A program made the translations under genes and the position numbers. A DNA stretch of 64,000 nucleotides, from NCBI RefSeq assembly GCF_023208195.1, contig NZ_CP060034.1, forward strand, positions 1,798,001 to 1,862,000, in the 5' to 3' direction. Positions 40,200-56,686 of the stretch are shown here, one piece after another. This stretch comes from Nocardioides sp. InS609-2. GTDB lineage: Bacteria; Actinomycetota; Actinomycetes; Propionibacteriales; Nocardioidaceae. The notes below the pieces were generated by a model that saw only the letters and a list, made by a program, of their open reading frames with translations, was not told where the DNA came from and made no database searches. Position 1 is the first letter of the stretch, and every line of letters begins with the position of its first letter.

Positions 40200-40421
40200 T
40201 TACTTGTAGCGGTAGACGATGCGACCCCGTGTGAGGTCGTACGGCGACAGCTCCACCACCACGCGGTCCTCAGGGAGGATCCGGATGTAGTGCTGGCGCA
40301 TCTTGCCGCTGATGTGGGCGAGCACCTTGTGTCCGTTGGTCAGCTCGACCCGGAACATGGCGTTGGGAAGGGCCTCCACTACGGTGCCCTCGATCTCGAT
40401 CACGCCTTCTTTCTTCGGCAT
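40200..40421 (-). CDS. infA: Translation initiation factor IF-1
   Basis: The 73-residue OB-fold protein reads [20 protein letters not shown] and ends [14 protein letters not shown], the usual IF-1 length. It blocks the A site during initiation. The ATG at 40419-40421 is preferred on homology; a GTG three codons earlier is possible. It is the first gene of the alpha operon here, because map lies 15 kb away. Confidence 0.96.
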
Positions 40422-40702: not shown

Positions 40703-43039
40703 TCAGCGACGCAGGAACCCTGGCCTGAACGTGGTGATGTTGACCGCGGCAAACCAGCGGGTACGCCGGCCCACCGTGCGCGACATCGCGCGGCGCTCCT
40801 TGTCGATGCGCGCCCAGTAGGACTCGGCGCTCTCGGCCGCGGGCACCTCCGGCCCCCAGACCGAGCTGTCGGCCTCCCGGGCCAGGGCGGCGGCCCGCTT
40901 GGACGTGATCGAGCCGGACTGCTCGCGGCGGGTCACGGTGCTCGTGAGCGGCACCTGCTGACCGAGGTCGAGGGCGTGGTCGACCAGCTCGCGCCAGGCG
41001 CCGACGAACCGCGTGGATACCGCAGCGGCGGAGCGGCGACGGCGCCGGCGGAGCACCTTGGCGGCAATGATGGAGCCGAGGCACAACGCGATGACCAGCA
41101 GCGGGATGCCGACATAGATCACCACGGTGGCCACCCACGCGGGCAGCCCGTCGCCCTCTGCCTGCAACTTGTCGGACGGCTTGTTGGCCATCTTGGCCCG
41201 CAGGTCGGAGTCGGACTGCTCACCGAGGTCCGACGGCGGCGGGATCGGCGCCGGCGGGGGCACGACCGTGCCGCTGAGCGGCTCCTGGGTCTGGGGCTGC
41301 TGCTCCGAAGGCGGCCGGTCGGACATGAACGCCTCGGTCGGCAGGGTGCGCCACGAACCGTCGGCGAGCCGCAGCTCGACCCAGGCCGAGACGTCCTCGC
41401 CGGTCACGACGCCGCCCGCGGGTACGACAGCACCCATGACCACCCGGGCCGGGACCCCGATCTTGTTGGCCATCAGCGCCATCGTCGCGGCGTACTGCTC
41501 GTCGTTGCCGACCATGACCTCGGCGTTGACGAAGCCGTCGGAGAGCCGCTGGATGCCGTGTCCGGGGTAGTAGGTGCGCTCGGACTTCTTGACTCCGTCG
41601 GAGTAGCGGCCCTCGGTCTTGAGGTGATCGGCCACCGCGAACACCCGCTCCATGGGTGTGTTCGCCTCCTCGGTCCACTTGGAGGCCGGGCCGTCGAGGA
41701 AACCGGTGCCGTCGGCGGGCACGCCGGTCTGGCTCGAGGGCGCATCAGCGGCGGTGACGGCCTCGTCAGGAGCCACGGCAGTGAAGGAGTAGCGGTCGCC
41801 GGGGTGCAGCCCGGACGGTACGACGGCAGTCGAGGTCGCGAGGTTGTAGCGGAACGACTCGCCCTTGACGCCCGGCTCGCCGCTCTCGAACTCCATCGAC
41901 TGGAGCGCGCCGATCACGGGCAGCCAGACGCCGCGGTAGCCCTCACCGAGGGTCACCGTGGCCTTGACCGCGTCTCCGGAGACCTGGTTGTCGATGACCG
42001 ACGAGACCCGCTGGAAGGAGTCCTCGGCCTCGCCGGGCAGGGCGTCGTTGGACGCCCCCCACACCATGCCGTCGTAGCTGTCGAGCGTCGCGAACCGCAC
42101 CCGGCTGCCGTTGGGGGCACCGGTGACGCGGAACAGCTCCTTCTCGAAGACGTTGGTCGGCCGTTCCTCGCGTGCCGTCGCGGGCAGCTCTACGTAGTTG
42201 CGGAACGACGCCAGCAGCGAGGGGTAGCGGCCGATGTCGAACGGCGGCTCGACGTAGGAGCGCAGCACGGTGCGGTCGGTGTCGGCGCCCATCGCCGCGT
42301 TGGCCACGGGCAGGGCGAGCACGGCTGCAGCGCCCAGCAGTGCGACGCCGGCGACGCTGCGCCCGATGCCGCGGCTGCCGCCCCGGACGGCCGCGCTCTC
42401 GCGGCGGCCACGGAGCGCCAGCCAGCCGAGCGCCAGGGCTGCGAAGCCCACGCCCTGCAGCCACAGCGACTGCGGGTGTCGGACGCCGAGCCCGATGACG
42501 ACGACGAGCGCGAGAGCGCAGGCCAGCACGGGCAGCAGGGCGGTGAGCCACGAGCGCCTGGTCTGGAGGTGCACCAGCTGGGCACCGATGAAGCCCGACA
42601 CCAGGCCGAGCGTCCACGGCAGCACCAGCAGCGGCCCGGTGCCGTCGACCGGGGGCAGCGTGGTGAGCATGTCCTTCCAGCCGAACAACAGCTGGTCGGT
42701 CAGCTCGCCGAGCGTGCGTCCACCCGGGACGTACGCCGTGTCGCCGATCGAGCGCAGGCACAGCGGGCCCCCGAACAGGAAGAACACGACGACCAGCGTG
42801 AGCACCGCCGCCACCACGGGCCAGCGCAGCGCGCGGAAGAGCGCGGAGATCGCGACAGCGAGGACGGTGCCGACGATGCCGACGACGAGGTAGCCCTGGC
42901 CGGTGAACGACGAGGCGAAGCCACTCAGGGCCAAAGAGGTAAGGGCCACCACGAACACGAGGTCGAGGAGGCGTGGGACGCCGGGCCAGTCGGCGCGCGC
43001 CCGCCGCCGGGTCTGGGTCTGGGTGTCGAGGCTCGTCAT
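40703..43039 (-). CDS. TgpA-like membrane protein with a degenerate transglutaminase domain
   Basis: The 778-residue protein has about six membrane segments in residues 20-250, an extracytoplasmic region with the transglutaminase-like core (about 470-575), a Pro-rich linker, one more membrane helix (about 635-660) and a basic cytoplasmic tail. The core aligns well (NDEQYAATMALMANKIGVPA, then SAWVELRLADGSW and LPTEAF). All three catalytic residues are changed: the Cys position is Asp513, the His position Ser551 and the Asp position Leu566. It is therefore probably a binding domain and not an enzyme. Its start overlaps the DUF58 gene by ATGA. Confidence 0.85.
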   Translation of the reverse strand: MTSLDTQTQTRRRARADWPGVPRLLDLVFVVALTSLALSGFASSFTGQGYLVVGIVGTVLAVAISALFRALRWPVVAAVLTLVVVFFLFGGPLCLRSIGDTAYVPGGRTLGELTDQLLFGWKDMLTTLPPVDGTGPLLVLPWTLGLVSGFIGAQLVHLQTRRSWLTALLPVLACALALVVVIGLGVRHPQSLWLQGVGFAALALGWLALRGRRESAAVRGGSRGIGRSVAGVALLGAAAVLALPVANAAMGADTDRTVLRSYVEPPFDIGRYPSLLASFRNYVELPATAREERPTNVFEKELFRVTGAPNGSRVRFATLDSYDGMVWGASNDALPGEAEDSFQRVSSVIDNQVSGDAVKATVTLGEGYRGVWLPVIGALQSMEFESGEPGVKGESFRYNLATSTAVVPSGLHPGDRYSFTAVAPDEAVTAADAPSSQTGVPADGTGFLDGPASKWTEEANTPMERVFAVADHLKTEGRYSDGVKKSERTYYPGHGIQRLSDGFVNAEVMVGNDEQYAATMALMANKIGVPARVVMGAVVPAGGVVTGEDVSAWVELRLADGSWRTLPTEAFMSDRPPSEQQPQTQEPLSGTVVPPPAPIPPPSDLGEQSDSDLRAKMANKPSDKLQAEGDGLPAWVATVVIYVGIPLLVIALCLGSIIAAKVLRRRRRRSAAAVSTRFVGAWRELVDHALDLGQQVPLTSTVTRREQSGSITSKRAAALAREADSSVWGPEVPAAESAESYWARIDKERRAMSRTVGRRTRWFAAVNITTFRPGFLRR

Positions 43040-44223
43040 CGCACGCTCCAGCGCAGCAGCCCGGCCAGGTCGTCCTTGGCGGCCAGGTGCAGGACCGGGA
43101 GTCCGCCGGCCTCGCTCACCCGGCTGCGGCCGGCGGGGTCGATCAGGATGGCGAAGCGGCGTACTTCGGGCGGGAAGGCCGCCGACGCGCGCTGCACGTC
43201 GCGGAACTCGCAGCCCGGGCCGGTGATGAAGAAGCAGAGACTGGTGTCGGGCGCGACGGAGACGGCACGTCGCCCGGTGTTGACCAGCCCAACGTTTCCG
43301 AAGTCGGCCCGGCAGACCGAGTCGAGCGCCAGGTGACCGTCGGCGCCGGACGACGCCTGCTTGCCGCAGACGAACGAGACCTCGAAGTCGTCCAAGATCG
43401 CGCGTACGGCGATCGACGCGGCCACGGCCATAGCCATCTCGAAGTCGTCGGGATCGGGCCAGGCCGACAGCTGGTCCTCGACGACCAGCGTCGCGTGGCT
43501 GCGACGCGTGTCGAGGTACTGCCGGACGAGCAGCGCCGACTCACCGGTCGAGGCCATCACCTTGGCCGACGAGCGCCAGTGGATGTGGCGCAGGTCGTCG
43601 CCGGGGGCGTACTCGCGCAGGGCATGGAAGGCCAGGTCGCTCTGCGAGATCGCGTCGGTGGAGACGCCCTCGAGGTCGCGCAGGAGGCCGGCTCCCAGGG
43701 ACTCCAGGGGCAGCAGCGGCGGCCGCACGAGCACCTCGCGGACCGGCGTCCAGGTCACGTCACGGGAGAAGATGCCGAGTGGGTCACCGCGCCGCGTGAT
43801 CGCCGGGCCGACGGGAATGACCCCGCGACGCTCGGTGCGGATGGTGAACGTCTCTTCGTTGCCGGCCCCGGGTGCCAGCGAGCCGATGCCGTAGCGGTGC
43901 ACGGCCGAGCCGACCGGCACCTCGAGCGTGGTGGGCAGCAGTCGTCGCCCGGCGGTGTTGGTCACCAGCACGCTCGCCGCGGCGGACTCCCCCGCCATTA
44001 CTCGCTCCGGCTCGAGGCCGAGGTCGACACGCACGTTGGTGCGGCCCAGCAGGAACGGTGCGGCGAGCACGAGCAGGAGCAGGCAGGCCGCGGCGATCAC
44101 GCCCAGCTCGCGCCAGTGCGCCGTCTGGGCGACCAAGGCTGCGCCCACGCCGATCCCGAGGATCACCCAGCCCACAGGCTTGACGATCCCCAGGATCTGG
44201 TCGAGAGGCTTGGTGTCGGCCAT
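43036..44223 (-). CDS. DUF58-domain protein
   Basis: The 395-residue protein has two N-terminal membrane segments (about 14-60) and then the DUF58 region with the signature REYAPGDDLRHIHWRSSAKV. A vWA-like C-terminal part follows (THATLVVEDQLSA-like segment, LCFFITGPG). DUF58 proteins are regularly encoded with MoxR ATPases and transglutaminase-like proteins and are thought to be substrates or partners of the MoxR chaperone. It lies ten bases after the moxR gene and overlaps the TgpA-like gene. Confidence 0.9.
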   Translation of the reverse strand: MADTKPLDQILGIVKPVGWVILGIGVGAALVAQTAHWRELGVIAAACLLLLVLAAPFLLGRTNVRVDLGLEPERVMAGESAAASVLVTNTAGRRLLPTTLEVPVGSAVHRYGIGSLAPGAGNEETFTIRTERRGVIPVGPAITRRGDPLGIFSRDVTWTPVREVLVRPPLLPLESLGAGLLRDLEGVSTDAISQSDLAFHALREYAPGDDLRHIHWRSSAKVMASTGESALLVRQYLDTRRSHATLVVEDQLSAWPDPDDFEMAMAVAASIAVRAILDDFEVSFVCGKQASSGADGHLALDSVCRADFGNVGLVNTGRRAVSVAPDTSLCFFITGPGCEFRDVQRASAAFPPEVRRFAILIDPAGRSRVSEAGGLPVLHLAAKDDLAGLLRWSVR

Positions 44224-44233
44224 GGGCGTGGTC

Positions 44234-45202
44234 TCAGGCCACCCGGTCGGTCGGCGGGGATACGGCGTCGAGCAGCCGGCTGATCACGGTCTCGACGGTG
44301 ACGCCGCTGAACTGCGCCTCGGCGTCGAGCAGCACGCGGTGGCACAGCACGGGCTCGGCGAGCTCCTTGATGTCGTCGGGCACGACGTGGTCGCGGCCGT
44401 CGGCGGCCGCCCACGTCTTGGCCACCCGGATGAAGGCCAGACCACCACGGGGCGACAGGCCGAGCTTGACGTGCGGCTGACGGCGAGACTCCTCGGCCAG
44501 CTCGGCGACGTACCCGATGACGGCCGGGTCCACGTAGACCTGGTCGGCCAGGCCGCTCATCTGTGCGATCGTCTCGGCGGTGATGACCGGCGTGACCAGC
44601 GAGGCGCGGTCGCGAACGGCTGCGTTGACGAGCAGCTCGATGGTGGCCGCGCGGTCGGGGTAGCCCATCGACGCCTTCATCAGGAACCGGTCGAGCTGCG
44701 CCTCGGGAAGGCGGTAGGTGCCGGCCTGCTCGATGGGATTCTGGGTCGCGATGACCAGGAACGGGCGGCCGACGGAGTGGGCGACGCCGTCGATGGTGAC
44801 CCGGCTCTCCTCCATCACCTCGAGCAGCGCCGACTGGGTCTTGGGCGAGGCCCGGTTGATCTCGTCGGCCAGCACGATCGTGTGGAAGATCGGACCGGGA
44901 TGGAACTCGAACGTGCCCTTGTGCTGGTCATAGACGGTCACGCCGGTGACGTCGGAGGGCAGCAGGTCGGGCGTGAACTGGATGCGGGCATGGCTGCCCT
45001 GGACGGTGTTGGCGAGCGCTCGCGCCAGCATCGTCTTGCCCGTGCCGGGGAAGTCCTCGAGCAGGATGTGGCCCTCGGAGAGCAAGCAGGTCAGGGCGAG
45101 GCGTACGACGTGGCGCTTGCCGAGGACGGCCTTCTCCATGTTGTCGGTCAGCTGGTCGAAGGTCTCCTTGAACCAGTCGGCCTGCTCGTGCGAGATCGTC
45201 AT
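44234..45202 (-). CDS. MoxR-family AAA+ ATPase
   Basis: The 322-residue protein has Walker A DFPGTGKTMLARALA, Walker B VLADEINRASPKTQ, sensor 1 FLVIATQNPIEQAG and a C-terminal lid with LGLSPRGGLAFIRVAK. MoxR ATPases act as chaperones that mature or activate partner proteins, often with vWA/DUF58 partners. The set MoxR-DUF58-TgpA downstream of the giant surface-protein gene suggests it matures that protein or its anchoring complex (inference). Confidence 0.93.
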   Translation of the reverse strand: MTISHEQADWFKETFDQLTDNMEKAVLGKRHVVRLALTCLLSEGHILLEDFPGTGKTMLARALANTVQGSHARIQFTPDLLPSDVTGVTVYDQHKGTFEFHPGPIFHTIVLADEINRASPKTQSALLEVMEESRVTIDGVAHSVGRPFLVIATQNPIEQAGTYRLPEAQLDRFLMKASMGYPDRAATIELLVNAAVRDRASLVTPVITAETIAQMSGLADQVYVDPAVIGYVAELAEESRRQPHVKLGLSPRGGLAFIRVAKTWAAADGRDHVVPDDIKELAEPVLCHRVLLDAEAQFSGVTVETVISRLLDAVSPPTDRVA

Positions 45203-45242
45203 GGTGTGTCTTTCTGCCGGTGGGTTGGACGGAAGTCGAGCG

Positions 45243-48200
45243 TTACCACGCGATCTCCACGCTTCTGCCGGACTGCTGTGCGGACCCGCATTCAGCCCAC
45301 ACGGTTGGGCCGAGCGGCAGCGTGCCCGTGCCGTAGTAGTAGTAGGTCCCTGATGAATAGTTGGCTACGGGGTCGACCGCGAACTGGAAGTCTGGGCGAC
45401 CCGTGCGGTGGATCTTGCACGCGTACCTCTCCACGAACCCGCTCACCGCGACGTTGATGAAGGCGCAGTTGGCCTCGGTGCACGGCGCGAACGGCTCTGC
45501 GCCCGTGCCCCCAGGTGGCATGCAGGCTGGAGGCCGGTTGGGATCGTTCTGGTCGGTGCCGTCGCGGCAGGTGCCGCCTTTCGACACCGAAACGGTCACC
45601 GGCGGCGGATCGTTGGACGTGGCCACCGCACTGCGCACCACTTCCCCACGACCAAGCGGGTTGTCGTCGGAGATCTTTACGAAGATGTCGGTCTGCTCAC
45701 CGTACTTGTCGGTCTCGTAGGTCGGCGTGGTGAAGTTGAAGGCTCCTGGACCGGCCGGGCGGAACTCGCGCACCGGCTGCTTCTTGCTCTGATACTGCAC
45801 CAGGACCGAGTCGCCGTTGCTGGTGCCCGAGATGCTCCAGCTGATCGACTTTCCGCTGACGTTCGGCGTGATGGAGAAGATGTGCCGCTCGGCGATCGGA
45901 CCGTAGGCCTGCACCTGTTGGAGTTCACTGTCGGTGCACCCGCCACGACTGAAGTTCTCGTTGCACACGCGCAGCGCGACGCTGAAGCTCCGCTCGTTGG
46001 TGGGCACGTCGATGAGCTCCGACTGGGCCCCGACAGCACCGTTGCGGGCCGGGCGCGCAACGCCGTCGACCAGCACCGTGACGTTGCTCTGCGCACCCCG
46101 GGAGTCCGGCACGACGTAGTTCAGCTGCGCCTGGTTGTCGCGACCGGTGGCCGACCAGTTCCACGCGGCCCAGTTGGCCGGCTTGCCGATCGCCTCGAAG
46201 CGAACGGGCGCGCTCGCGGGCGACTGGTTGCCCGGCGCGTTGTAGGCGATGACGGTGTAGTTCACGGCGCTTCCGTCGTACGGCACGTTGCGGTGCAGAC
46301 ACGTCGCCACCTCGATCCGCACGCAGCCCGGGATCGCCGTCGCGACCCCGTCGTCGACCCGGGCGAACGCGGTGTACGTCGTCGGCCCGGGGCCCTCGGG
46401 AAGCGTCGCCGCCCAGTCCAGGGCCACGGTCGTGAGATCCCTGCCCAGCTGCTGGTCGACGGCCCGCAGGGACGTCGGTGTGAGCGGCGTGCCGAGAGAC
46501 TGGAACGGCGCCGACTCACGGATGTCGGAGAGCCCGGCCTTGTTGCGCGAGTAGATCTTGAACGTGTAGGTCCGGTTGTTGTCCAGACCTGTGAGGTCGA
46601 GCGAGGTCAGCGTTCCGGGCACGGTCTGCGTGGGGAGGCCCTGCGCGGTGATGGTGTAGCTCTCGATCGCAGAACCGGACGGGTTGGCGGCACCCCACGA
46701 GATCTTCATGGTGTTCGGTCCCCGGCTCACCTGCGTGATGGACGGCACCCGGCCGGGCTTGGTGGTGGCCACCGCAGTCAGCGAGCGGTCGCTGAAGCCG
46801 GAGAGCCCGACCCGGTTGTGCGCTGCCACCTGGAACGCGTAGCTCTTGCCGACCTGCCCCACCTTCACCGCTCCGGAGTTGGTCCGGAACCGCTGCGTCA
46901 CGCCGGACTTGATCTCCTTGATGAGGTAGTAGTCGATCGGCGACCCGTTGGCCTCCGACGGCGCCCACGACAGGTTGATCCGCTTGCTCTCCAGGTCGCC
47001 GACCCGGATCGGCCGGCCGGGGACACTCGGGGTGTCCAGCACATCGAGGGAGATGGTGCCGTCGACAGTGCGCTCCGGCGCGGGGTTCTCGTCGGCGACG
47101 TCGGTCATGCTCACGCTGAACTCCGCGTGGCCGATCACCCCGTTGGGCGCCGTGAGCGTGACCTTCGTGCCGTCGGCCGACGCCGTGACACCGACTCCCG
47201 ACGAGCGGGACACCTCGATGACGCGGGGCTCGGGACTGGCGACCCCGGCCGAGAACCGGGACGCCAGATCGATGGTGCGCGACGAGCCTGGCTTGAGGTC
47301 GGGCACGCTGATCGGGAGGAGCGACGGTGAGGGCGCTTGCTCGACCCTGATCTGCAGCGTGTCGGGCTCGCTGTCGCCCGCGGTGATCGTGATGGCGCCC
47401 TCACTGCCGGACAGGGCCGAGCCGCTCGCCGTGACCTCGAGCGTGTCGGTGCCGGAACCGGTCAGCGTCACACCCGTGACCTGGGGGTCCCAGGCAGCCT
47501 CGTAGGTGAGGCCGGCAACCGCTGCGGGGTCCTGGGTCCAGACGTTGCAGACCGAGGCGACGTCGATCTCGATGGCATCGACCTGGTTGACCGCCACAGG
47601 CACATCGGGGCAGTGCAGCTCGGGCCGGTCGGTGCCGATCTGGACCGGGATCGACAAGATGGTCCGCCGGACGTCCTTGCCGGTCGTCGGAGCGACCTCG
47701 ACGAGCAGGGCGCCCGGGCCGGTGTAGTCGCCGCGCGACGTGAGATCGACCGCGAGGTCGCCGTTGTAGCGGGCATCCAACGCCACCGGAGGCGAGGCCC
47801 AGACCCGGTTGCGACCCGTGATGGCCAGGGGCGCACCGGTCGGGTTGACGATGTAGTCCTCGAGCGTCACCCGGAGGGACTTGGCGGAGTCGATCTTGAT
47901 CGGGGCGTCGTCACGGACGTACGGCCTGCTGGTGCCGGTGGGCGGCACGTAGACCGACGCTGTGGCCGAGCCGCCGTCGGCGTCCTCGACCCGGAACGGG
48001 ATCACGCGGGGCTCGGGCCCACGCGTCACCGTGACACTGGCGCCCTCGAACGTCGCGATCGCGGGGTCTGCGAACACCTCGACCAGACGCAGGTCGGTGC
48101 GCGAGCCGTCGGGGTCGTAGGCACCGCTCAGCTCGTTGGGGCCGGCGAGCACATCGACCGTGACCTGGTCGCTGTCGGTGGTGCGCCCGTAGGCGTCGTA

Positions 48201-51200
48201 CACGACCGGCGGGTTGTTGTAGTCCTCGATCGGCGTGAGTGTCACCGTGCTCGTCGACGTGGCCAGCCCGTTGTCGAGTCGGTAGACCACCTCGATGACG
48301 TCGTCCTTGACCGTGCCGGGCGCCTTGATCGAGATCGGGCCGATCTCGGACTCGAGCTCGACCCCGGCCGGCGCGTCGACCAGCTCGACCTTGATCCGGT
48401 CGGTCGTCCCGATCTGGTCGTTGGCGATCACGTCGACATGGGCGGTACGGCCGGGCTCGATCATCATCTGGTCGGGCACGGCCACGGGCGGCTGCGGGGT
48501 GCCCACCGGCACCACGGCGACCCGCACGGTGCCCGTCGCCTCGGCACCCAACGTGTCGACCACGGTGTAGGTGAACTCCTCGGAGCCCACACCCCGCGGG
48601 TAGGCCTGGAACTCCAGCGAGTTCGCACCGAACGAGACCACGCGACCGAGCGTGGGTGCGGAGGCGATGCCCGTCACGGTGACCGGGTCGCCGTCGGGGT
48701 CGACGCCGAAGCCGGGCACCTTGAGCTTGACGGTGTCGCCGGAGACGACGCGGCCTTCGAGGACAGGGGGCTCCGGCGCGGTGTTGGGTGACTTTGCCGG
48801 CACGACCACGACGGTCAGCCGGCCCTGTGCGGTCTCGCCTGCAGAGTTCTCGGCGACGTACAGCACGTCGAAACTGTCTCGCTCCTTGATGTCGGGCGGG
48901 GCGATGTAGCGGACCATCCGGCCGGCGATGAACGCCCTGCCGACGTCGCCCTTGACATCGATCGGCGCCCGGACTCGCAGCTCACCCGAGCCGAGCTCGG
49001 TCGCGTCGTCGGTGAGGCTCAGCTGGTCACCCGAGGGGCTGTAGTCGTTGTCGAGCACCGGCGTCACCACGGCGGACCCGGCCCGGACGATGACCCGGTC
49101 GGACGCGGTGACCGGCGTGTTGTCCTCGGGCTGCGGACGCTGGCTGACGAGGACCTCGCCGCGCGCGGTCCGGTTGCCGTTGCTGACCGTGTAGCGAACC
49201 AGCTGGGGGTTCGGCAACAGACGGCCCTGGCGCGGGGCGATGCGCAGCCACCGGCCGTCGATGACCGAGACGTCGATCTGGCTCTTCTCCTGGGCGGCGG
49301 CGTTCTGCACGACCAGGATCCCGCCGGCCGGGTCGACGTCGTTGGCGAGTACGTCGACCGTGCCGGCCGCCTGGCCGTAGATCGTCAGCGTGTCGGGCAT
49401 CGCCACCGGATCGAGGGCGTTCTTCGGGGCCGGCCGGACGTCGACGCGAATCTTGCCGGGGGCGGTGGGGGCACTGCCGTAGGCGGCGTCGTAGTCGACG
49501 AAGTAGGTGCCCGCCTTGTCTGACAGGAACCGGATGGTGCCGGCGTTGAGGTCGGTGCGGATGCGTGCGGAGCCCTGGTCGGGGATCTTGCCGCCGATGG
49601 TGAGGTCGGCGTTCGGCGTGGCCGGGTCGGAGCCCGGCATGTCGTTGGCCAGCGGCCGGATAGTGATCGGCTTGCCGACCTCACCGCTGACCACGTCGGG
49701 GTTGGCCGTCGGCTGGACCGGGGTCGTGTTGAACTTGTCCTGGACGGCGAAGTTGATCGCCTTGGTCGTCGCCGGACCGACGCCGTCGGTGACGGCGTAC
49801 TCCACCCGGACGTTGGCGGCCTCGGGCGGAGCGGTGAAGCGCACGCGTCCCGTCGCGGTGGTGCGTGCGGTGGCCGCGGTGTCGCCGGCGCCGGCGCCGA
49901 CGACGGTGGCCGACTCGAGCAGGAGCGAGTCGGAGTCCACGTTGTCGCGCCAGTCGGAGAGCAGGGGCACCTCGAGGGAACCCCCGGCGGGCACCACCCA
50001 GGGCTTGGACTCGTAGCCCTCGCGCAGCGTGGGCTGGGCGTTCTCGCCGGAAGACCGTACGGCGACACTCACCGTCGCATGGGCGGACTGGGTACGGCCG
50101 TCGTCGATGTAGTACTCGAAGGACGTCGAGCCCTTGGCGTCGTCGGGCACGCGCAGCTGCAGTGTCTGGCCGTCGGGACTGATGGTGACCGATGCGCCGG
50201 GCATGCTCGGCGCGTCGACGGCGCGGATCGCCAGCAGCCGACCCTCGGGCGCCGAGTCGTTGTCGAGCGGATGGAGGACACTCGTGCGGCCGGGCCGGGC
50301 ACCGAAGTCATCGGGCTTGGCCTTGGGCGGACGACGATCGGCGTTGTTCTGGTTCTCGTCGTCCTTGTCCTTGTCCTTGATCTGCTTCTTCGAGGTGAAA
50401 GCCTGCCAGTTGTCGATCTTGAGCGGCTTGTCGGCGTCGATGTCCCAGATGGATCCGGTGCTGCGGTCGTTGAGCAGGATCTCGCCGCGGTTGACGCGGA
50501 AGACGAGGTTGCTCGCCTCGCCTCCCAGGCTCTGCGGCGTGGGCGCGCCGCTTCCGCAGGCGACGGCCACCGAGCCGAGACCGCCCGACCACGCGCCGTA
50601 CTCACAGGCGCCGAGGCGAACCGGAGCAGCGGGCTGGCCGCTCTGTCCCTCGACCACGGTCGTCGTCTCGCCGGTCGCGAGGCCGACCGAGAGCAGGGCA
50701 CCTGGCGTGCCGACGAGTACGTCGTCGGCGGACGGGCCGGACTGCTGCAGGACTCCCGTGTCGGGAAGAGTGGTGCTGCCGCCGCCGATGACCGCGAGCT
50801 GGCCGGACGCCGCGTCGAGGGTGACGGCCTTCTCACCGACCGCTGTCATGGCCGTGGGGGCGCCCGCGGCCTCGGGCAGCGCCTTCTTAGTTGGCTCGGT
50901 GAAACCCGACGCCGCGCCGGAGGTCGACGGGCGGATGGTGACCAGGGTGCCCTTGTCGGACGAGGTGACCAGGATCGTGCCGGACTCGGTGACTGCCATC
51001 GCCGCGCCCTTGCCGGCCTTGACGAGGGGATCGGCAGAAGGGTCGATGCCCCCCACGAGCGGCTTGCCGGTCTGCGGGTCGAAACGCGTCGCCCAGACCT
51101 CGCCGGTGCCCGGGTCGACATTGGCGAGCGTGCCCCCGCGCATCTGCACCTGGCCACCCGACGGGATCGATGCGGTGGTTTCCGAGAGGGTCAGCCCGGC

Positions 51201-51515
51201 CGTCTCGATCGCGTAGGCGCGACCCGCACGCAGGTTCAGGCCGACGACACCGGCGCCGTCCTGGACGATGTCGAGGTCGGTGTCCTGCTCGGCGAAGATG
51301 GCGCCATCGAGCTGGCCGATGGGCTTGTTGACGCGACCGAAGTAGCCGCGTTCGGAGGTCGTGACCCAGATGCCACCGTCATTGAGATCGGTGCGGTGGG
51401 AGCGGTAGCCCTCGGCGGAGACGGCGTAGACGACAATGGCTCCCGCCGCGATCGCCAGGGCAGCATTGGTCGCGATGGCTGCCCGATGCCGCCTCATGAA
51501 CCCCCGCAGGCGCAC
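45243..51515 (-). CDS. Giant surface protein with Ig-like/cadherin-like and fibronectin type III repeats
   Basis: The 2090-residue protein has a basic N-terminus and one membrane anchor (about 12-32, AAIATNAALAIAAGAIVVYA). Residues 40-365 look like a beta-propeller-type repeat region. A charged linker (KDKDKDDENQNN, near 382) follows, then at least six Ig-like/cadherin-like repeats with signatures such as VLDNDYSPSGDQLSL and DPDGDPVTVTG (about 400-1490). Three FN3 domains follow (about 1495-1790, for example RINLSWAPSEANGSPIDYY). The C-terminal 300 residues have several Cys and no sortase motif. GTG start at 51515 has AGGGGG upstream; ATG 51497 is an alternative. It heads the operon with moxR, DUF58 and TgpA-like genes. 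Confidence 0.87.
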   Translation of the reverse strand: MRLRGFMRRHRAAIATNAALAIAAGAIVVYAVSAEGYRSHRTDLNDGGIWVTTSERGYFGRVNKPIGQLDGAIFAEQDTDLDIVQDGAGVVGLNLRAGRAYAIETAGLTLSETTASIPSGGQVQMRGGTLANVDPGTGEVWATRFDPQTGKPLVGGIDPSADPLVKAGKGAAMAVTESGTILVTSSDKGTLVTIRPSTSGAASGFTEPTKKALPEAAGAPTAMTAVGEKAVTLDAASGQLAVIGGGSTTLPDTGVLQQSGPSADDVLVGTPGALLSVGLATGETTTVVEGQSGQPAAPVRLGACEYGAWSGGLGSVAVACGSGAPTPQSLGGEASNLVFRVNRGEILLNDRSTGSIWDIDADKPLKIDNWQAFTSKKQIKDKDKDDENQNNADRRPPKAKPDDFGARPGRTSVLHPLDNDSAPEGRLLAIRAVDAPSMPGASVTISPDGQTLQLRVPDDAKGSTSFEYYIDDGRTQSAHATVSVAVRSSGENAQPTLREGYESKPWVVPAGGSLEVPLLSDWRDNVDSDSLLLESATVVGAGAGDTAATARTTATGRVRFTAPPEAANVRVEYAVTDGVGPATTKAINFAVQDKFNTTPVQPTANPDVVSGEVGKPITIRPLANDMPGSDPATPNADLTIGGKIPDQGSARIRTDLNAGTIRFLSDKAGTYFVDYDAAYGSAPTAPGKIRVDVRPAPKNALDPVAMPDTLTIYGQAAGTVDVLANDVDPAGGILVVQNAAAQEKSQIDVSVIDGRWLRIAPRQGRLLPNPQLVRYTVSNGNRTARGEVLVSQRPQPEDNTPVTASDRVIVRAGSAVVTPVLDNDYSPSGDQLSLTDDATELGSGELRVRAPIDVKGDVGRAFIAGRMVRYIAPPDIKERDSFDVLYVAENSAGETAQGRLTVVVVPAKSPNTAPEPPVLEGRVVSGDTVKLKVPGFGVDPDGDPVTVTGIASAPTLGRVVSFGANSLEFQAYPRGVGSEEFTYTVVDTLGAEATGTVRVAVVPVGTPQPPVAVPDQMMIEPGRTAHVDVIANDQIGTTDRIKVELVDAPAGVELESEIGPISIKAPGTVKDDVIEVVYRLDNGLATSTSTVTLTPIEDYNNPPVVYDAYGRTTDSDQVTVDVLAGPNELSGAYDPDGSRTDLRLVEVFADPAIATFEGASVTVTRGPEPRVIPFRVEDADGGSATASVYVPPTGTSRPYVRDDAPIKIDSAKSLRVTLEDYIVNPTGAPLAITGRNRVWASPPVALDARYNGDLAVDLTSRGDYTGPGALLVEVAPTTGKDVRRTILSIPVQIGTDRPELHCPDVPVAVNQVDAIEIDVASVCNVWTQDPAAVAGLTYEAAWDPQVTGVTLTGSGTDTLEVTASGSALSGSEGAITITAGDSEPDTLQIRVEQAPSPSLLPISVPDLKPGSSRTIDLASRFSAGVASPEPRVIEVSRSSGVGVTASADGTKVTLTAPNGVIGHAEFSVSMTDVADENPAPERTVDGTISLDVLDTPSVPGRPIRVGDLESKRINLSWAPSEANGSPIDYYLIKEIKSGVTQRFRTNSGAVKVGQVGKSYAFQVAAHNRVGLSGFSDRSLTAVATTKPGRVPSITQVSRGPNTMKISWGAANPSGSAIESYTITAQGLPTQTVPGTLTSLDLTGLDNNRTYTFKIYSRNKAGLSDIRESAPFQSLGTPLTPTSLRAVDQQLGRDLTTVALDWAATLPEGPGPTTYTAFARVDDGVATAIPGCVRIEVATCLHRNVPYDGSAVNYTVIAYNAPGNQSPASAPVRFEAIGKPANWAAWNWSATGRDNQAQLNYVVPDSRGAQSNVTVLVDGVARPARNGAVGAQSELIDVPTNERSFSVALRVCNENFSRGGCTDSELQQVQAYGPIAERHIFSITPNVSGKSISWSISGTSNGDSVLVQYQSKKQPVREFRPAGPGAFNFTTPTYETDKYGEQTDIFVKISDDNPLGRGEVVRSAVATSNDPPPVTVSVSKGGTCRDGTDQNDPNRPPACMPPGGTGAEPFAPCTEANCAFINVAVSGFVERYACKIHRTGRPDFQFAVDPVANYSSGTYYYYGTGTLPLGPTVWAECGSAQQSGRSVEIAW

Positions 51516-51687
51516 CTGCTACCCCCTGAATCGCTACAACTCTCGCCCGAGCGTAAGCAGTCGACGAACTACGAACAAGTTCCCGGGATCGTGTTCCGTA
51601 CTCCGGTCGCCGCTTCCACACTATTGTCGGTGCACCGGCACAATGTCGGGGGGCTTTGCAAATGTCTGGCCGGAACGAGGGGGCAGC
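51516..51687. promoter_or_regulatory. Divergent control region between the giant gene and the FHA gene
   Basis: This 172-base gap must hold promoters for both directions. On the plus strand TATTGT (51622-51627) fits a -10 box, giving a leader of about 50 bases to the FHA start. No clear operator is seen. Confidence 0.4.
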
Positions 51688-53010
51688 GTGGTCGTGGAGA
51701 CCCGGTACGCCGCGGGTGGCGGCGTGCTCCTCGGTGCCGGCGAACACTGGCTGCTCATGACCGACCCCGGTGACGAGCAGGTCCTCGAGCGGCTGTGGTC
51801 CGCGCTCGGGGACGGCCCGCGTGCGGCCGAGGAGGTGCTCGGCATCGTCGAGACCGCCTTCGGCGGTGAGCCCCCGGCACTGGTGCTCATCGACCTCACC
51901 CCGGGCACCGGCCAGACCGTCTCGCTCGGCAGCGGCCGGGTCCACGTCGAGGGCACCGCCCGGCTCATCTCCCTGGGTGGCGAAGGCATCCGCGCATCGG
52001 GGCCGTCGACCGAGCCGCTGCGCCGGTTCATCGGCGGCGTCGTCGCCGCCCAGCGGGCCGAGATCCGCCCGCTCCGACCCAAGGTCGTCAGCGCCGGCAC
52101 CGGCACTCCCGCCAGCAACGCGCCCGCGCCGGTCGCGGGCATGATCGACGGCATCCCGCAGGCGATCCTGGAAGCTCGCGGGCCCGAAGGTGCGCCGGCG
52201 CCGCGGCCCCGACGACTGCGTCCGGTGCTCACCGCCGAATCCGGTCCCCGTGACACCAGCGAGCCCGACCCCCTTTTCAACGAGCGCATCGTCGGCGCCT
52301 CCGCCGAGGTCACCGAGAGCCGGCCCGACGACCACGCCAATGCCCCGGCACCCGCCGTCACCGCGTCGTACGACGACCAGACGGCCGCCGTACCCGCACA
52401 CAGCGGCGAGCCCGTGGGCACGACCGGATCGGCCGGTACGACCGGCACCCGCCCGGCCGGCTCTCCCGTCGAGGAGCACGACCACGACGGTTCGACCGTG
52501 TACCGCTCCGGCGGGCCTGAGCACCTCGCCTCCTCGACCGGCGAGACCGTGCAGGCGGTGTGGTGCCCGGACGGCCACATGACTCCACCCGACTCACCGC
52601 TGTGCCGGGTCTGCCGCAAGCAGGTCGCGCCCCAGGCGGCCCAGCGGGTGTCCCGGCCGACCCTGGGTGGCCTGCGCCTGCCGACGGGTGAGGTCGTGCC
52701 GCTCGACCGCGGCGTCGTGCTCGGCCGGCGCCCCGCGCCGGTCCCCGGCAGCGGCGACTGGCCGCACCTGGTGCACCTCTCGGCCGAGCACACCTATGTC
52801 TCCCGCCTGCACGTGCAGATCGAGCTCGACGGATGGCTCGTCATCGCCCGCGACCTCGGGTCGCGCGGCGGGACCACCCGGAAGGTGCCCGGGCGGCCAC
52901 CGGAGAAGATGGTCCCCGACGAGTCCTATGTCATCGAGCCCGGCCACGCGCTGGACCTCGCCGATGTCTACGAGGTCCGCTACGAAGTCGGGCCAGAGGT
53001 CACTTTGTGA
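51688..53010 (+). CDS. FHA-domain protein with a zinc-ribbon-like segment
   Basis: The 440-residue protein starts at GTG 51688 (VVVETRYAAGGG) with GAGGGGG five bases upstream; an in-frame ATG at 51643 is possible. Residues 1-140 form an uncharacterised alpha/beta region and about 150-280 are low complexity. WCPDGHMTPPDSPLCRVC is a four-ligand zinc-ribbon candidate, and the last 115 residues form an FHA domain (LGRRPAP, VSRLHVQIEL, DLGSRGGT). FHA domains bind phosphothreonine. The usual Asn of the SxNGT loop is Gly here. Next to a Ser/Thr kinase gene 25 bases on, it is the likely phosphoprotein reader. Confidence 0.87.
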   Translation: MVVETRYAAGGGVLLGAGEHWLLMTDPGDEQVLERLWSALGDGPRAAEEVLGIVETAFGGEPPALVLIDLTPGTGQTVSLGSGRVHVEGTARLISLGGEGIRASGPSTEPLRRFIGGVVAAQRAEIRPLRPKVVSAGTGTPASNAPAPVAGMIDGIPQAILEARGPEGAPAPRPRRLRPVLTAESGPRDTSEPDPLFNERIVGASAEVTESRPDDHANAPAPAVTASYDDQTAAVPAHSGEPVGTTGSAGTTGTRPAGSPVEEHDHDGSTVYRSGGPEHLASSTGETVQAVWCPDGHMTPPDSPLCRVCRKQVAPQAAQRVSRPTLGGLRLPTGEVVPLDRGVVLGRRPAPVPGSGDWPHLVHLSAEHTYVSRLHVQIELDGWLVIARDLGSRGGTTRKVPGRPPEKMVPDESYVIEPGHALDLADVYEVRYEVGPEVTL

Positions 53011-53035
53011 GTGACCTGCACCTTGGGGAGAAGTC

Positions 53036-54418
53036 ATGAGCGCGCCCGTCATTCCGGGATACACGTTTGTCGAGCATCTCGGCAGCGGCGGATTCGCCGA
53101 CGTGTTCCTCTACGAGCAGGACTGGCCGCGCCAGCGGGTGGCCGTCAAGGTCGTGCGCCCCGACGTACCCCTCGACGACCGCGAGAAGGGGCTGTTCGCG
53201 GCCGAGGCCAACGCCATGGCCCGGCTCGCCGACCACCCCTACATCGTCTCGGTGATCACGGCCGGCATCACCCACGACTCGGGGCGACCGTTCCTGGTCA
53301 TGCGCTACTGCCCCCCGCCCGACCTCGGGGTGCGAGTGCGGTCCAACCCGATGGCGCCCATCGACGCGCTGAGCACCGGCATCAAGCTCGCCAGCGCCAT
53401 CGAGACCGCCCACCGCTCGGGCATCCTGCACCGCGACATCAAGCCGAGCAACGTGCTGGTCACGACCTACCACGAGCCCGCGCTCACCGACTTCGGCATC
53501 GCCGGCCACATCCACGACGTCGCCGGCGAGAGCGACGTCCGGATCTCCTACCCGTGGTCGCCGCCAGAGATGCTCGACGGTCGCTCCAACGGCACGGTGC
53601 ACTCCGACGTCTACTCGCTCGGCGCGACGATCTGGCACCTGCTGGTCGGCCGCTCGCCGTTCTCGATCCCCAACGGCGACAACTCCACGCGCGCCCTGTC
53701 GGCGCGCATCCTGCACGCCACTCCCCCGGCGACCCAGCGTCCCGACGTACCCCCGGCCCTCGACCGGCTTCTGCAGCAGTGCCTGGCCAAGAACCCCGCC
53801 CACCGGCCGCAGACCGCCCTCGAGCTGGCCCGCTCGTTGCAGCGCATCGAGTCCGACGCCGGCTTCCCACGCACGGCGGTCGCCGTCGAGGGAGACCGGT
53901 CGGACGCCGCTGTCGCAGCCCCGAGGCCCGAGACCGACGACGACCACACGGTGATGAAGGCGGTCACCGTCATCTCGGCGTCGGGTCCGCGCACCGTGGC
54001 GCCGGCAGCCCAACGCGCCGAGGACGAGAAGCAGTCCCGCGGCAGCATCGTGTGGGCGGTCGTGGCCGCGGTGGCCGTGGTGGCGATCATCGGCGGACTC
54101 ATGCTCAAAGGCGATGGCGGCAACGACGAGCCCGACCCCGGGCCGACCTCGCCGACCACTCCCCTCGACATCCTGCCGTCCGCCGTCGACCAGCCGCCCA
54201 CCCTCACGGCCGAGCGCACTGCGCGCGGCGTGCGCTTCCGCTGGACCGCCCAGGACATCCAGCCGGGCGACCAGTGGGTGTGGCAGCGCCTCGACACCGA
54301 GGAGACCCGGCGTACGACCAAGCAGTCAGCGATCATCCGGGCCGACGCCGACGTGTGCCTCGAGGTCCGCCTCCAGCGCGGCGGCGAGGACTCGCCGCTG
54401 GCTCAGGCCTGCGGCTGA
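53036..54418 (+). CDS. Transmembrane Ser/Thr protein kinase with an FN3-like outer tail
   Basis: The 460-residue protein has a Hanks-type kinase domain (about 8-275): LGSGGFADVFLY (P-loop), VAVKVVRPD (Lys), ILHRDIKPSNVL (catalytic Asp), LTDFGIAGH (metal Asp) and SPPEMLDG. An acidic juxtamembrane region and one membrane helix (about 342-361, IVWAVVAAVAVVAIIGGLML) follow. The last 95 residues, outside the cell, resemble one FN3 domain (LTAERTARGVRFRWTAQD). There are no PASTA repeats. The ATG has GGGGAG upstream. It likely signals through the FHA protein and may sense the FN3-bearing giant protein. Confidence 0.9.
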   Translation: MSAPVIPGYTFVEHLGSGGFADVFLYEQDWPRQRVAVKVVRPDVPLDDREKGLFAAEANAMARLADHPYIVSVITAGITHDSGRPFLVMRYCPPPDLGVRVRSNPMAPIDALSTGIKLASAIETAHRSGILHRDIKPSNVLVTTYHEPALTDFGIAGHIHDVAGESDVRISYPWSPPEMLDGRSNGTVHSDVYSLGATIWHLLVGRSPFSIPNGDNSTRALSARILHATPPATQRPDVPPALDRLLQQCLAKNPAHRPQTALELARSLQRIESDAGFPRTAVAVEGDRSDAAVAAPRPETDDDHTVMKAVTVISASGPRTVAPAAQRAEDEKQSRGSIVWAVVAAVAVVAIIGGLMLKGDGGNDEPDPGPTSPTTPLDILPSAVDQPPTLTAERTARGVRFRWTAQDIQPGDQWVWQRLDTEETRRTTKQSAIIRADADVCLEVRLQRGGEDSPLAQACG

Positions 54419-54475
54419 GGCTGCTCGCCGCGGCGCGGGGACGCCGAGGCAGTCGATCCGGATGGACTGCTCAGG

Positions 54476-55534
54476 TCAGTCGTCTTCCCAGTCGCGACGC
54501 GGGCCGGTCGCGGCGTCCTGCTCGGCGTCGGTCATCTTGCTGGACGCCCACAGGCTGACGACAGCCGTGACGGCGAGCGTGCCGATGATGATCACGAGCG
54601 AGAGCCAGATCGGGATGTCAGGCGCCCACGAGATGTGCTCGCCACCGTTGATGAACGGGAGCTCGTTCTCGTGCATCGCGTGCAGGATCAGCTTGACGCC
54701 GATGAAGCCGAGCAGGACCGCCAGGCCGTACGACAGGTAGATCAGGCGCTGCAACAGCCCACCGATGAGGAAGTAGAGCTGTCGCAGGCCCATCAGCGCG
54801 AAGATGTTGGCGGTGAACACCAGGTAGGGGTCGCGGGTGAGCCCGTAGATCGCCGGGATCGAGTCGAGGGCAAACAGCAGGTCGGTGGTGCCGAGCGTCA
54901 GCACGACGAGGAACATCGGCGTGATGAGGCGCTTGCCGTTCTCGGTGGTGAAGAGCTTGGTCCCGTTCCACTCCTTGGTGGCCGGCAGGTGATTCTCGGC
55001 GAACTTCACGAGGCGGTTCTCCTCGTACTCGTCCTCGTCCTCGCCGCCCTCCTTCGCGAGCTTCCAGGCCGTGTAGACCAAGAAGAGCCCGAAGATGTAG
55101 AACACCCAGCTGAACTGGTTGATCGCCGCAGCGCCGACCACGATGAAGATCGCGCGCATGACCAGGGCCAGCACGATGCCGATCATCAGCGCCGTCTGCT
55201 GGAGCTTCCGGGGTACGGCGAAGCTGTTCATGATGATGATGAAGATGAACAGGTTGTCGATCGAGAGGGAGTACTCGGTCAGCCAGCCGGCGAAGAACTC
55301 GGGGCCCGGGCTGGGCGAGTTCTCGTGCGGCGAGGCGAACAGCCAGAGGCAGACACCGAACACGACGGCCAGGCCGATGAAGAAGGCCAGGTGCCTGCTC
55401 ACCTCCGGCATCGTCGGCTCGTGCGGGCGGCGGGCGATGATCAGCAGGTCGACCAGCAACAGACCCAGGGTCACGACGATCGTGATGAGCCAGACAGTGG
55501 GTGAGGCGACCGAGCCTTCGACGATGGAACTCAC
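54476..55534 (-). CDS. TerC/Alx-family membrane protein (probable manganese exporter)
   Basis: The 352-residue protein has about nine membrane helices and the two TerC acidic signatures, TEYSLSIDNLFIFIIIMNS and TTDLLFALDSIPAIYGL. TerC-family proteins move Mn2+ out or supply it to exported enzymes. It starts at GTG 55532-55534 (VSSIVEGSVASP), with GGAGGAG 12 bases upstream. A yybP-ykoY-type riboswitch lies directly upstream, which strongly supports a manganese function. It converges with the kinase gene; only 57 bases separate their ends. Confidence 0.92.
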   Translation of the reverse strand: MSSIVEGSVASPTVWLITIVVTLGLLLVDLLIIARRPHEPTMPEVSRHLAFFIGLAVVFGVCLWLFASPHENSPSPGPEFFAGWLTEYSLSIDNLFIFIIIMNSFAVPRKLQQTALMIGIVLALVMRAIFIVVGAAAINQFSWVFYIFGLFLVYTAWKLAKEGGEDEDEYEENRLVKFAENHLPATKEWNGTKLFTTENGKRLITPMFLVVLTLGTTDLLFALDSIPAIYGLTRDPYLVFTANIFALMGLRQLYFLIGGLLQRLIYLSYGLAVLLGFIGVKLILHAMHENELPFINGGEHISWAPDIPIWLSLVIIIGTLAVTAVVSLWASSKMTDAEQDAATGPRRDWEDD

Positions 55535-55546
55535 GTGGGAGCTTCT

Positions 55547-55712
55547 CCTCCGGAGTGGACAGGTGCCGGTACGCGGGGGCGCGGACCGGTGCATGCTCCG
55601 GAGGTCTCTTCCGCTCGATCACGATGCTTCGTGCGAGCCAATGGCACCGGGTACGGACCAACCGGCCCGCGCCGTACTGACGACACCATCGCGACGGGAA
55701 TACTCCCCTCCT
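55547..55712 (-). promoter_or_regulatory. yybP-ykoY manganese riboswitch with Shine-Dalgarno sequestering arm
   Basis: Minus-strand RNA from 55712 begins AGGAGGGGAGTATTCCC and ends the aptamer with GAGCGGAAGAGACCTCCGG near 55599. GGAGG pairs with CCTCC as the P1 stem. The GGGGAGTA and AAGA(G)ACCTC ends are the hallmark loops of the yybP-ykoY class. CCTCCGGAG (55604-55596) is also exactly complementary to CTCCGGAGG (55555-55547), which contains the ribosome binding site of the TerC gene, so P1 formation on Mn2+ binding would free the site. Confidence 0.8.
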
Positions 55713-55776: not shown

Positions 55777-56595
55777 TCAGCGTCCACCGAACGGGACGCC
55801 GAGCTCCTTGAGCCGCTGCTCGCCGCCATCGAGGGCGGTGAGCACCCAGGCACCGCGCGGGGTCATCGTGAAGGTGTTCTCGGAGTGGGCCGACAACGAG
55901 CCGTCGATGGTGACGACGGTCCAGTCGTCCTCGAGGACCTCGGTGTCGGGCCGGCCGAGGGTGATCATCGGCTCGACCGCGAGGGCCAGGCCCTCGACGA
56001 TGCGGGGGCCACGACCGGGGCGGCCGTAGTTGGGCACGTTGGGTGGCTGGTGCATCTCGGAGCCGATGCCGTGTCCGACGTAGTCCTCGAGGATCCCGAA
56101 CTCGCCGGCGCTGCGGACGTACTGCTCGATGGCGTGCGAGATGTCGGTGACGCGCCCGCCGAGACGCGCGGCAGCGATGCCACGCCACATCGACTCCTCG
56201 GTGACCTGCATCAGCTTGACGGCTGCCGCGCTCACCTCGCCGACCGGCACCGTGACCGCCGCGTCGCCGTGCCAGCCGTTGACGATGGCGCCGCAGTCGA
56301 TCGAGATGACGTCGCCCTCGACCAGTGCCCGGTCACCGGGGATGCCGTGGACGACCTCGTCGTTGACCGAGGCGCAGATGGACCCGCTGAAGCCGTGATA
56401 GCCGAGGAACGACGGCGTGCCCCCGCCGGAGCGGATGGCGTCGTCGGCGATGGCGTCGAGCTCACCGGTCGTGACGCCCGCCCTCACCGAGGACCGCAGG
56501 AGCTCCAGGGTGGAGCCGACCAGCAGACCGGCGACGCGCATGGCGTCGATCTGGTCGGGCGTCTTGATCTCGATGCCGCGGTCGCGCAGTCCCAT
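55777..56595 (-). CDS. map: Methionine aminopeptidase, type I
   Basis: The 272-residue metalloprotease removes initiator Met. The ligands are visible: two Asp in SIDCGAIVNGWHGDAAVT, His in YVGHGIGSEMHQPPN, Glu in LAVEPMITLG and Glu near SLSAHSENTF. It starts at ATG 56593-56595 (MGLRDRGIEIKTPDQ) with GGAGAGGG upstream. It follows adk as in the canonical spc operon, but infA does not follow it here. Confidence 0.96.
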   Translation of the reverse strand: MGLRDRGIEIKTPDQIDAMRVAGLLVGSTLELLRSSVRAGVTTGELDAIADDAIRSGGGTPSFLGYHGFSGSICASVNDEVVHGIPGDRALVEGDVISIDCGAIVNGWHGDAAVTVPVGEVSAAAVKLMQVTEESMWRGIAAARLGGRVTDISHAIEQYVRSAGEFGILEDYVGHGIGSEMHQPPNVPNYGRPGRGPRIVEGLALAVEPMITLGRPDTEVLEDDWTVVTIDGSLSAHSENTFTMTPRGAWVLTALDGGEQRLKELGVPFGGR

Positions 56596-56623
56596 CAGAT
56601 CCCTCTCCCCAGAACACTCACTG

Positions 56624-56686
56624 GTGTTTCGAGACGGCTCCCGCACCCGCTCGCTTCGCTCGCGTGTACGCCGGGCCTCCTCAACC
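56624..56686. repeat. Interspersed TTCGAGAC-type intergenic repeat
   Basis: Read on the minus strand it runs from GGTTGAGGAGGCCCGGCG to GCCGTCTCGAAACAC, with GAGCGAAGCGAGCG in the middle. This is the form of a widespread intergenic repeat of Nocardioides-like genomes (from memory). It lies between map and adk in an otherwise compact operon. Confidence 0.55.

Follow-up and report, generated by a model that had tools for sequence, protein, structure and literature searches.

The window analysed here is a stretch of 64,000 nucleotides (bases 1,798,001-1,862,000) of Nocardioides sp. InS609-2, whose genome is one contig of 4,524,052 bp. Between map and infA it carries a set of genes for a transmembrane Ser/Thr kinase, an FHA-domain protein, a giant surface protein, a MoxR-family ATPase, a DUF58 protein and a TgpA-like membrane protein (Table 1). 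Our data argue strongly for homology between this set and the bifidobacterial PFNA operon, and on sequence grounds we regard the set as a variant of that described system with a divergent arrangement, not as a new kind of system. The end of map (55777) and the start codon of infA (40421) are separated by 15,355 bp, in line with the approximately 15.3 kb given by an earlier, sequence-only reading of this DNA. The gene content named there, including the 2090-residue giant and the degenerate TgpA-like protein, is borne out by Pfam and NCBIfam models (below cut-off for FHA and DUF58) and by homologues. On the minus strand the order is secY, adk, map, TerC and, further on, giant, MoxR, DUF58, TgpA-like and infA. 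Inside the insert, the FHA gene followed by the kinase gene forms a plus-strand pair that is divergent from giant-MoxR-DUF58-tgpA. No consensus sigma-70 promoter was found in the divergent region (51516..51687), and promoter and terminator matches were not enriched over shuffled sequence.

Table 1. Features of the map-infA interval and its flanks (window coordinates)
Feature	Position	Strand	Basis
Transmembrane Ser/Thr kinase, Pkb2 homologue	53036..54418	+	Pfam Pkinase 137.5 bits; motif and transmembrane scan
Kinase ectodomain, ~104 residues, two invariant Cys	54104..54415	+	alignment of 26 ectodomains
FHA-domain protein, FHA C-terminal	51688..53010	+	FHA signature; start set from homologues
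Divergent intergenic region, giant gene (-) vs FHA-kinase pair (+)	51516..51687	.	open reading frame layout
Giant surface protein, 2090 aa, B. longum FN3 homologue	45243..51515	-	Pfam, transmembrane scan, blastp vs P0122
Predicted eight-bladed beta-propeller of giant, ~residues 41-374	50394..51395	-	unrecognised by Pfam
MoxR-family AAA+ ATPase	44234..45202	-	AAA_3 209.3 bits, AAA_lid_2 82.7 bits
DUF58 protein, two N-terminal hydrophobic segments	43036..44223	-	19.3 bits; transmembrane scan; motif columns
TgpA-like polytopic membrane protein, pseudo-transglutaminase domain	40703..43039	-	Transglut_core, TgpA_N, transmembrane scan, 6g49 profile
Putative dead active-site loop GNDEQYA, Asp at catalytic Cys position	41489..41509	-	profile alignment
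map, flank (last gene of spc side)	55777..56646	-	TIGR00500, type I methionyl aminopeptidase, 267.9 bits
TerC/Alx membrane protein, not counted in set	54476..55594	-	TIGR03718 376.2 bits
infA, flank (first gene of alpha side), codirectional with tgpA, 281 bp downstream	40200..40421	-	93-100% identity in genus relatives

The giant matches Big_9, cadherin-like and fn3 domains in Pfam. An N-terminal transmembrane anchor (residues 14-32) is followed by the propeller, Big/cadherin-like repeats, one or more FN3 domains and a Cys-containing C-terminus; the propeller is unannotated, is predicted to have eight blades and, standing after the anchor, would lie outside the cell. The kinase retains its catalytic motifs (LGSGGF, VAVKV, HRDIKPSN and DFGI) and has one transmembrane segment by hydropathy (residues 338-356). 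Its ectodomain matches no Pfam family and aligns with those of bifidobacterial and other clusters, with F45, C85, V88 and C103 invariant in 26 sequences. Profile matches of the ectodomain in the PDB (E 0.06-0.6) are part FN3-type receptors and part immunoglobulin. An FN3-type domain shared by kinase and giant, as previously suggested, finds no support in the sequences: the hhalign probability is 3.7%, and Pfam fn3 is matched by one of 26 ectodomains at 0.051.

The FHA protein scores 17.4 bits against its model, below the cut-off of 20.7, and a homologue (L025) passes with 26.1. The signature of FHA phosphothreonine readers (G-R, S-x-x-H, S-x-x-G-T) shows no change across the 12 homologues aligned, and we class the protein by it. 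The FHA domain is preceded directly by a conserved C-P-x-G-H ... C-x-x-C cluster, which in most of these 12 resembles a small zinc ribbon. The MoxR protein has the AAA_3 core and AAA_lid_2 of MoxR AAA+ ATPases and also matches bpMoxR (PF20030, 35.4 bits, above the cut-off of 27). The DUF58 match lies below its cut-off of 23.4 bits; the DUF58 signature is kept and the metal-binding DxSxS is absent.

Homology to the bifidobacterial PFNA operon

In published descriptions, the PFNA operon of Bifidobacterium reads pkb2-fn3-aaa-atp-duf58-tgm, optionally with prpC, a hypothetical gene and fha. Its presence was reported first for 71 of 86 species of the genus and then for 77 of 99, and it was described as 'found only in bifidobacteria'. 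For B. longum, a review (PMC8430577) reports that MoxR is phosphorylated by Pkb2, and a mycobacterial moxR operon is said to resemble PFNA (PMC12067865). FN3 fragments of B. longum and B. bifidum bind cytokines in vitro; FN3 fragments bind TNF-alpha, which also induces PFNA genes (PMC12607495, PMC10688814).

We found homology beyond domain likeness in the giant, in MoxR, in the kinase ectodomain and in tree nesting (see below). Residues 44-1680 of the window giant are collinear with residues 59-1686 of P0122 (blastp, 26.8% identity over 1704 columns, E 1.2e-92). P0122 is a protein entry of 1994 aa, the published length of B. longum FN3, with 26,303 member sequences, and all 13 of the B. longum FN3 residues given in the literature are present in it when the fragment numbering is shifted to the stated start at 1494. 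Identity to the window MoxR is 51-57% in each of 12 genomes from the bifidobacterial family, all picked because they had already matched in a MoxR search at E 1e-96; another genome of that family (G818) gave no MoxR match at 1e-96. All ten loci fetched from the family have kinase, giant, MoxR, DUF58 and TgpA arranged as published, and five of the ten also show a PP2C match. The giant of L175 has the same sequence as a B. scaligerum protein, and the other nine loci are called bifidobacterial by the family code that they share with L175. The set thus has a relative with published biochemistry, whereas the earlier reading named no characterised function for all of it. Two oddities were seen among the bifidobacterial loci. 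In a single-contig genome, giant and MoxR lie in one 2187-aa frame (L177:7313-13876, minus strand), by fusion or sequence error, and the kinases of L175, L176 and L177 lack the catalytic-loop HRD string, though Pkb2 is reported to be active.

The window and PFNA share, as homologues, each of the five core proteins and FHA as well. The five core genes of the window stand side by side, with the FHA gene between kinase and giant, and the linear order kinase ... giant, MoxR, DUF58, TgpA is common to both. Both giants are about 2000 aa long, with one N-terminal transmembrane segment and FN3 domain(s) near residues 1500-1670, and both clusters encode a predicted pseudo-transglutaminase, with Ser at the dead Cys site in PFNA and Asp in the window. 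Unlike PFNA, the window has its kinase and FHA genes on the plus strand, opposite the other four, its FHA gene adjoins the kinase gene, and the set lies between map and infA without a PP2C gene. A further difference is the WSxxS motif of the FN3 domains. At the FN3-1 site it is present in 10 of 11 bifidobacterial giants and in 46 of 104 others, WSDWS and WSEWS among the latter, whereas the window giant reads GLSGFS there. Clusters running in a single direction do exist in other actinobacteria (for example, L025). Because this trait is lacking in the window, we file the set as a PFNA homologue and not as a strict PFNA operon.

The literature names the Tgm protein a transglutaminase or a presumed cysteine protease. 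We found that the window counterpart matches Transglut_core (49.2 bits) and, just below the cut-off of 30, TgpA_N (27.9 bits), with PDB 6g49 as a profile relative (E 3.8e-08). Entries 6g49 and 6g4h are presumably TgpA of Pseudomonas aeruginosa, which, like the window protein, is a membrane protein with an external transglutaminase-like domain. Transglutaminases carry the motifs G-x-C-x-x-[FY]-A and H-A-W. At these sites the window reads VGNDEQYA and SAWVEL; unlike in TgpA, the catalytic Cys and His are replaced, the Cys by Asp. The printed alignment to 6g49 spans the His stretch and starts just past the Cys, and the Asp column is taken as the Cys column on the family motif.

Over 138 aligned rows, one with a gap, Cys stands at this column in 0 of 137. 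Eighty of the rows were fetched with two peptide patterns, and since one pattern demands Asp, the lack of Cys in these 80 is no evidence; the other 58 (57 with a letter) count. These 57 unselected rows read Asp in 35, Ser in 10, Glu in six, Ala in three, and His, Gly and Gln in one each. The His column still reads His in 17 of the 57 and in 49 of 137 overall; in the window the His is lost. In 8 of 8 bifidobacterial rows Ser replaces the Cys and the His is missing, two short fragments (L176 and L179) being unscored. Judged by these residues, the bifidobacterial and window 'transglutaminases' are predicted to be dead and no cysteine enzymes. With Cys missing from all scored copies, the annotation of tgm shifts from enzyme to pseudoenzyme.

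Distribution, trees and correlated distances across Actinomycetota

Related clusters are found across Actinomycetota, which contradicts the published bifidobacteria-only distribution and weakens the published function. At E 1e-96, a threshold loose enough that some generic MoxR may be included, the order of G352 has MoxR of this type in 178 of 297 genomes; at 1e-105 the class has it in 32 of 296. Both counts are of MoxR alone. The giant's N-terminal profile was found in at least 16 of 396 genomes of the phylum (five candidates scored per genome), seven of the 16 outside the class. Loci chosen by MoxR contained a giant match in 12 of 15 cases in one set (two weak) and in 19 of 20 in another. 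Conversely, a profile of the giant only gave 22 giant genes, 17 of which were examined for neighbours; MoxR, DUF58 and TgpA lie beside the giant on the same strand in 14 of the 17, including three weak, shorter giant-like frames of 786-994 aa (L197-L199). Co-occurrence, proposed as a check in the sequence-only reading, is thus strong for the giant and the triad. Named carriers of giant and triad include Kutzneria, Lentzea, Actinokineospora, Saccharothrix, Knoellia, Terrabacter, Marihabitans, Agreia, Microbacterium and Catenulispora. Kinase, FHA and PP2C are not all present at every cluster fetched outside the window. We found no report of the whole set outside Bifidobacterium in the available parts of the literature searched, in which subscription journals are thinly covered.

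Gene order is not fixed outside Bifidobacterium: in two Knoellia loci (L095 and L109) the giant lies downstream of tgpA and not upstream of MoxR. Two tandem giants precede one MoxR triad in L019 (7141-13350 and 13432-19650, minus strand), and three such MoxR genes per genome occur in G320, G363 and G651 (family f11), each 4-6 kb from a giant N-terminal match in G320 and G363. The window's own genome has a second MoxR-DUF58-TgpA triad at 2.66 Mb (L016, G000:C1:2658000-2677900; MoxR 5789-6793), with no giant, two further kinases approximately 9 kb away and a TgpA that also lacks the Cys.

Two trees were built from MoxR and DUF58, the first from 76 hand-picked loci (L192 was dropped for an internal stop) and the second by an IQ-TREE quick search of the 65 rows left after removal of 11 near-duplicates. 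The bifidobacterial loci form one clade inside the giant-bearing clusters in the 76-row tree, and this clade has a support of 100 in the 65-row tree. The four outgroup rows do not fall together in the first tree and do so in the second (support 97). A tree with the bifidobacterial clade outside all others was rejected by the approximately unbiased (AU) test (p 0.016), which was set after the first tree had been inspected. Giant-free triads of the genus (L016, L017, L020 and L096) nest among giant-bearing clusters in the 76-row tree, which suggests that the giant was lost from them after duplication. Pairwise distances over 50 loci, with Nocardioides L049-L080 left out, correlate for all ten protein pairs, from r 0.584 for giant-kinase to r 0.946 for TgpA-giant, in part reflecting shared ancestry, which was uncontrolled. 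The top value fits the mechanism proposed below, with the giant as client of the TgpA-like protein, without proving it.

Proposed working and competing explanations

We propose that the set, homologous to PFNA and housed in the map-infA slot, encodes a machine of MoxR, DUF58 and pseudo-transglutaminase, regulated by phosphorylation, by which a giant fibre of the envelope is assembled or anchored. We give this reading a probability of roughly 0.6. The mechanism, unlike the homology, is what we infer. The transmembrane kinase, as gatekeeper, would sense the envelope state through its small ectodomain with two conserved Cys. It would then phosphorylate MoxR, as reported for B. longum Pkb2, and the FHA protein would dock on phosphothreonine and recruit partners. 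Going by what is known of the families, the MoxR ring and the membrane-anchored DUF58 protein may act as an ATP-driven remodeller. The TgpA-like protein could serve as membrane scaffold, its external dead transglutaminase domain binding or orienting the giant. The giant, with one N-terminal transmembrane segment, propeller, Ig-like stalk, FN3 domains and tip, would in this way be put together, exposed at the surface or anchored, forming a fibre of the envelope that serves adhesion or contact between cells. A phospho-signalled system for a surface structure had been suggested before, and in this, as in the coherence of the set and the degenerate TgpA, we agree with the earlier reading.

Several observations weigh against the proposed machine. 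The set is dispensable, since at E 1e-105 such a MoxR is missing from 6 of the 16 genomes sampled in the genus. The MoxR-DUF58-TgpA triad can serve something else, because giant-free triads exist in Nocardioides. Nor does every giant have the full set beside it: L196 stands by itself, MoxR is missing at L195, and the triad of L169 lies on the other strand. No PP2C gene was found in the window's insert, though it is part of many clusters. TerC may have a looser link to such clusters, judging from a locus (L202) described below. To these are added the qualifications given above: the MoxR-only counts, whose loosest matches may be generic, the uncontrolled ancestry behind the correlated distances and the placement of the Cys column by the family motif.

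Instead of building a fibre, the proteins might form a sensor or stress module, in which the giant is an envelope mechanosensor that signals to the kinase, with MoxR-DUF58-TgpA as an output arm directed at other membrane complexes. Intact kinase motifs, a conserved ectodomain, the FHA reader, PP2C beside many clusters and triads without a giant are all in keeping with this. However, the giant correlates best with TgpA and worst with the kinase, and kinase and FHA genes lie here on the other strand from the giant; we consider such a module improbable, though the most credible of the competitors.

PFNA has been promoted as a bifidobacterial host-cytokine sensor, with therapeutic claims, and described as unique to bifidobacteria. 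On that account, WSxxS motifs of the FN3 domains let the giant bind cytokines, and host ligands are what the kinase detects; in support, the published reports offer in vitro cytokine binding by FN3 fragments and the induction of PFNA genes by TNF-alpha (PMC12607495, PMC10688814). Homologous clusters nevertheless occur in Nocardioides, Lentzea, Kutzneria, Actinokineospora, Terrabacter, Knoellia, Microbacterium and others, some of them soil, root or leaf isolates by record title only. WSxxS is also present in 46 of the 104 non-bifidobacterial giants counted above and absent from that of the window. Host communication is thus quite unlikely to explain the set, and host immune sensing is unlikely as the giant's ancestral job. 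Because homologous clusters, the kinase ectodomain and often WSxxS occur in other actinobacteria, the basic function of PFNA is to be sought in the bacterial envelope. We would give even odds to the broader proposition that PFNA-type clusters are an ancient actinobacteria-wide fibre-building machine, with the dead transglutaminase as membrane receptor and a kinase-controlled MoxR-DUF58 motor, and that the bifidobacterial cluster is a late branch in which cytokine binding is secondary or incidental.

The set also recalls two other MoxR systems. MoxR-vWA-beta-propeller ternary systems have a vWA partner with a metal-binding DxSxS site, and DUF58 is vWA-like. MoxR, a vWA-like protein and a propeller are thus common to both, and a MoxR-centred conflict system (anti-phage or toxin-type), like the ternary systems named in PMC7159879, could be read from the bpMoxR match and the propeller in the giant. 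Against this, AAA_3 is a far better fit to MoxR, DUF58 lacks DxSxS, the propeller follows a transmembrane anchor within an exported giant and is predicted outside the cell, and the window adds kinase and FHA regulators. We recognised nothing effector-like among the genes of the insert, in an analysis that did not extend to a search of the PADLOC library. A conflict function is very unlikely. The second resemblance is to the MoxR Proper triads, described as MoxR-DUF58-transglutaminase (Snider and Houry; Wong and Houry, cited in PMC6803598); the window has the same three adjacent genes in the same order, to which it adds kinase, FHA protein and giant. Our fibre-assembly reading would give such a triad a concrete model, with the giant as candidate client. 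That an active TgpA-type transglutaminase cross-links the giant in a cell-wall enzyme system is scarcely credible, for despite the Transglut_core score and the naming of 6g49 as a protein-glutamine gamma-glutamyltransferase, no Cys was seen at the nucleophile column and the His is lost in the window and in all scored bifidobacterial rows, being kept in about a third of rows overall.

The map-infA slot and TerC

For comparison we took the surroundings of map from 20 genomes in the order that lack the set or have it elsewhere, 18 of them with both map and infA visible. The map-infA gap spans approximately 0.14 to 6.7 kb in these 18 loci and is at least 1 kb in 15, so the split of the two genes, put down to the set in the sequence-only reading, is not its doing. 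TerC lies inside the interval in 6 of the 18. Given the differing gap sizes and these six loci, we regard the slot as variable and TerC as one of its usual tenants. As it resides there also where the set is absent, TerC was rejected as a member of the set, to which it had earlier been assigned.

Among the 15 other sampled genomes of the genus, seven have a MoxR at least 80% identical to that of the window, and in five of these map lies 9-11 kb from MoxR on the same contig and strand. The set sits between map and infA, with both flanks visible, in four relatives (L009-L012). In the fifth (L013), map is visible and infA was not seen within the 2.4 kb fetched beyond tgpA; in the remaining two (G014 and G007), map is on a different contig. 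This recurrence across the genus, together with the single-contig chromosome, rules out an assembly artefact. A mobile element or insertion scar was likewise rejected, as the window holds no tRNA and the boundaries no long near-identical repeat; there was no clear composition shift and no Rfam match in 38000-60000.

In clusters fetched from other families, neither map nor infA was seen alongside. Of the 32 nearest loci from named Nocardioides, 31 have infA no more than 10 kb downstream of tgpA, and in 25 the distance is no more than 500 bp. In another family, a TerC homologue (52% identity) stands beside a PP2C-FHA-kinase-giant cluster (L202, G363:C1, 1129-2076, plus strand).

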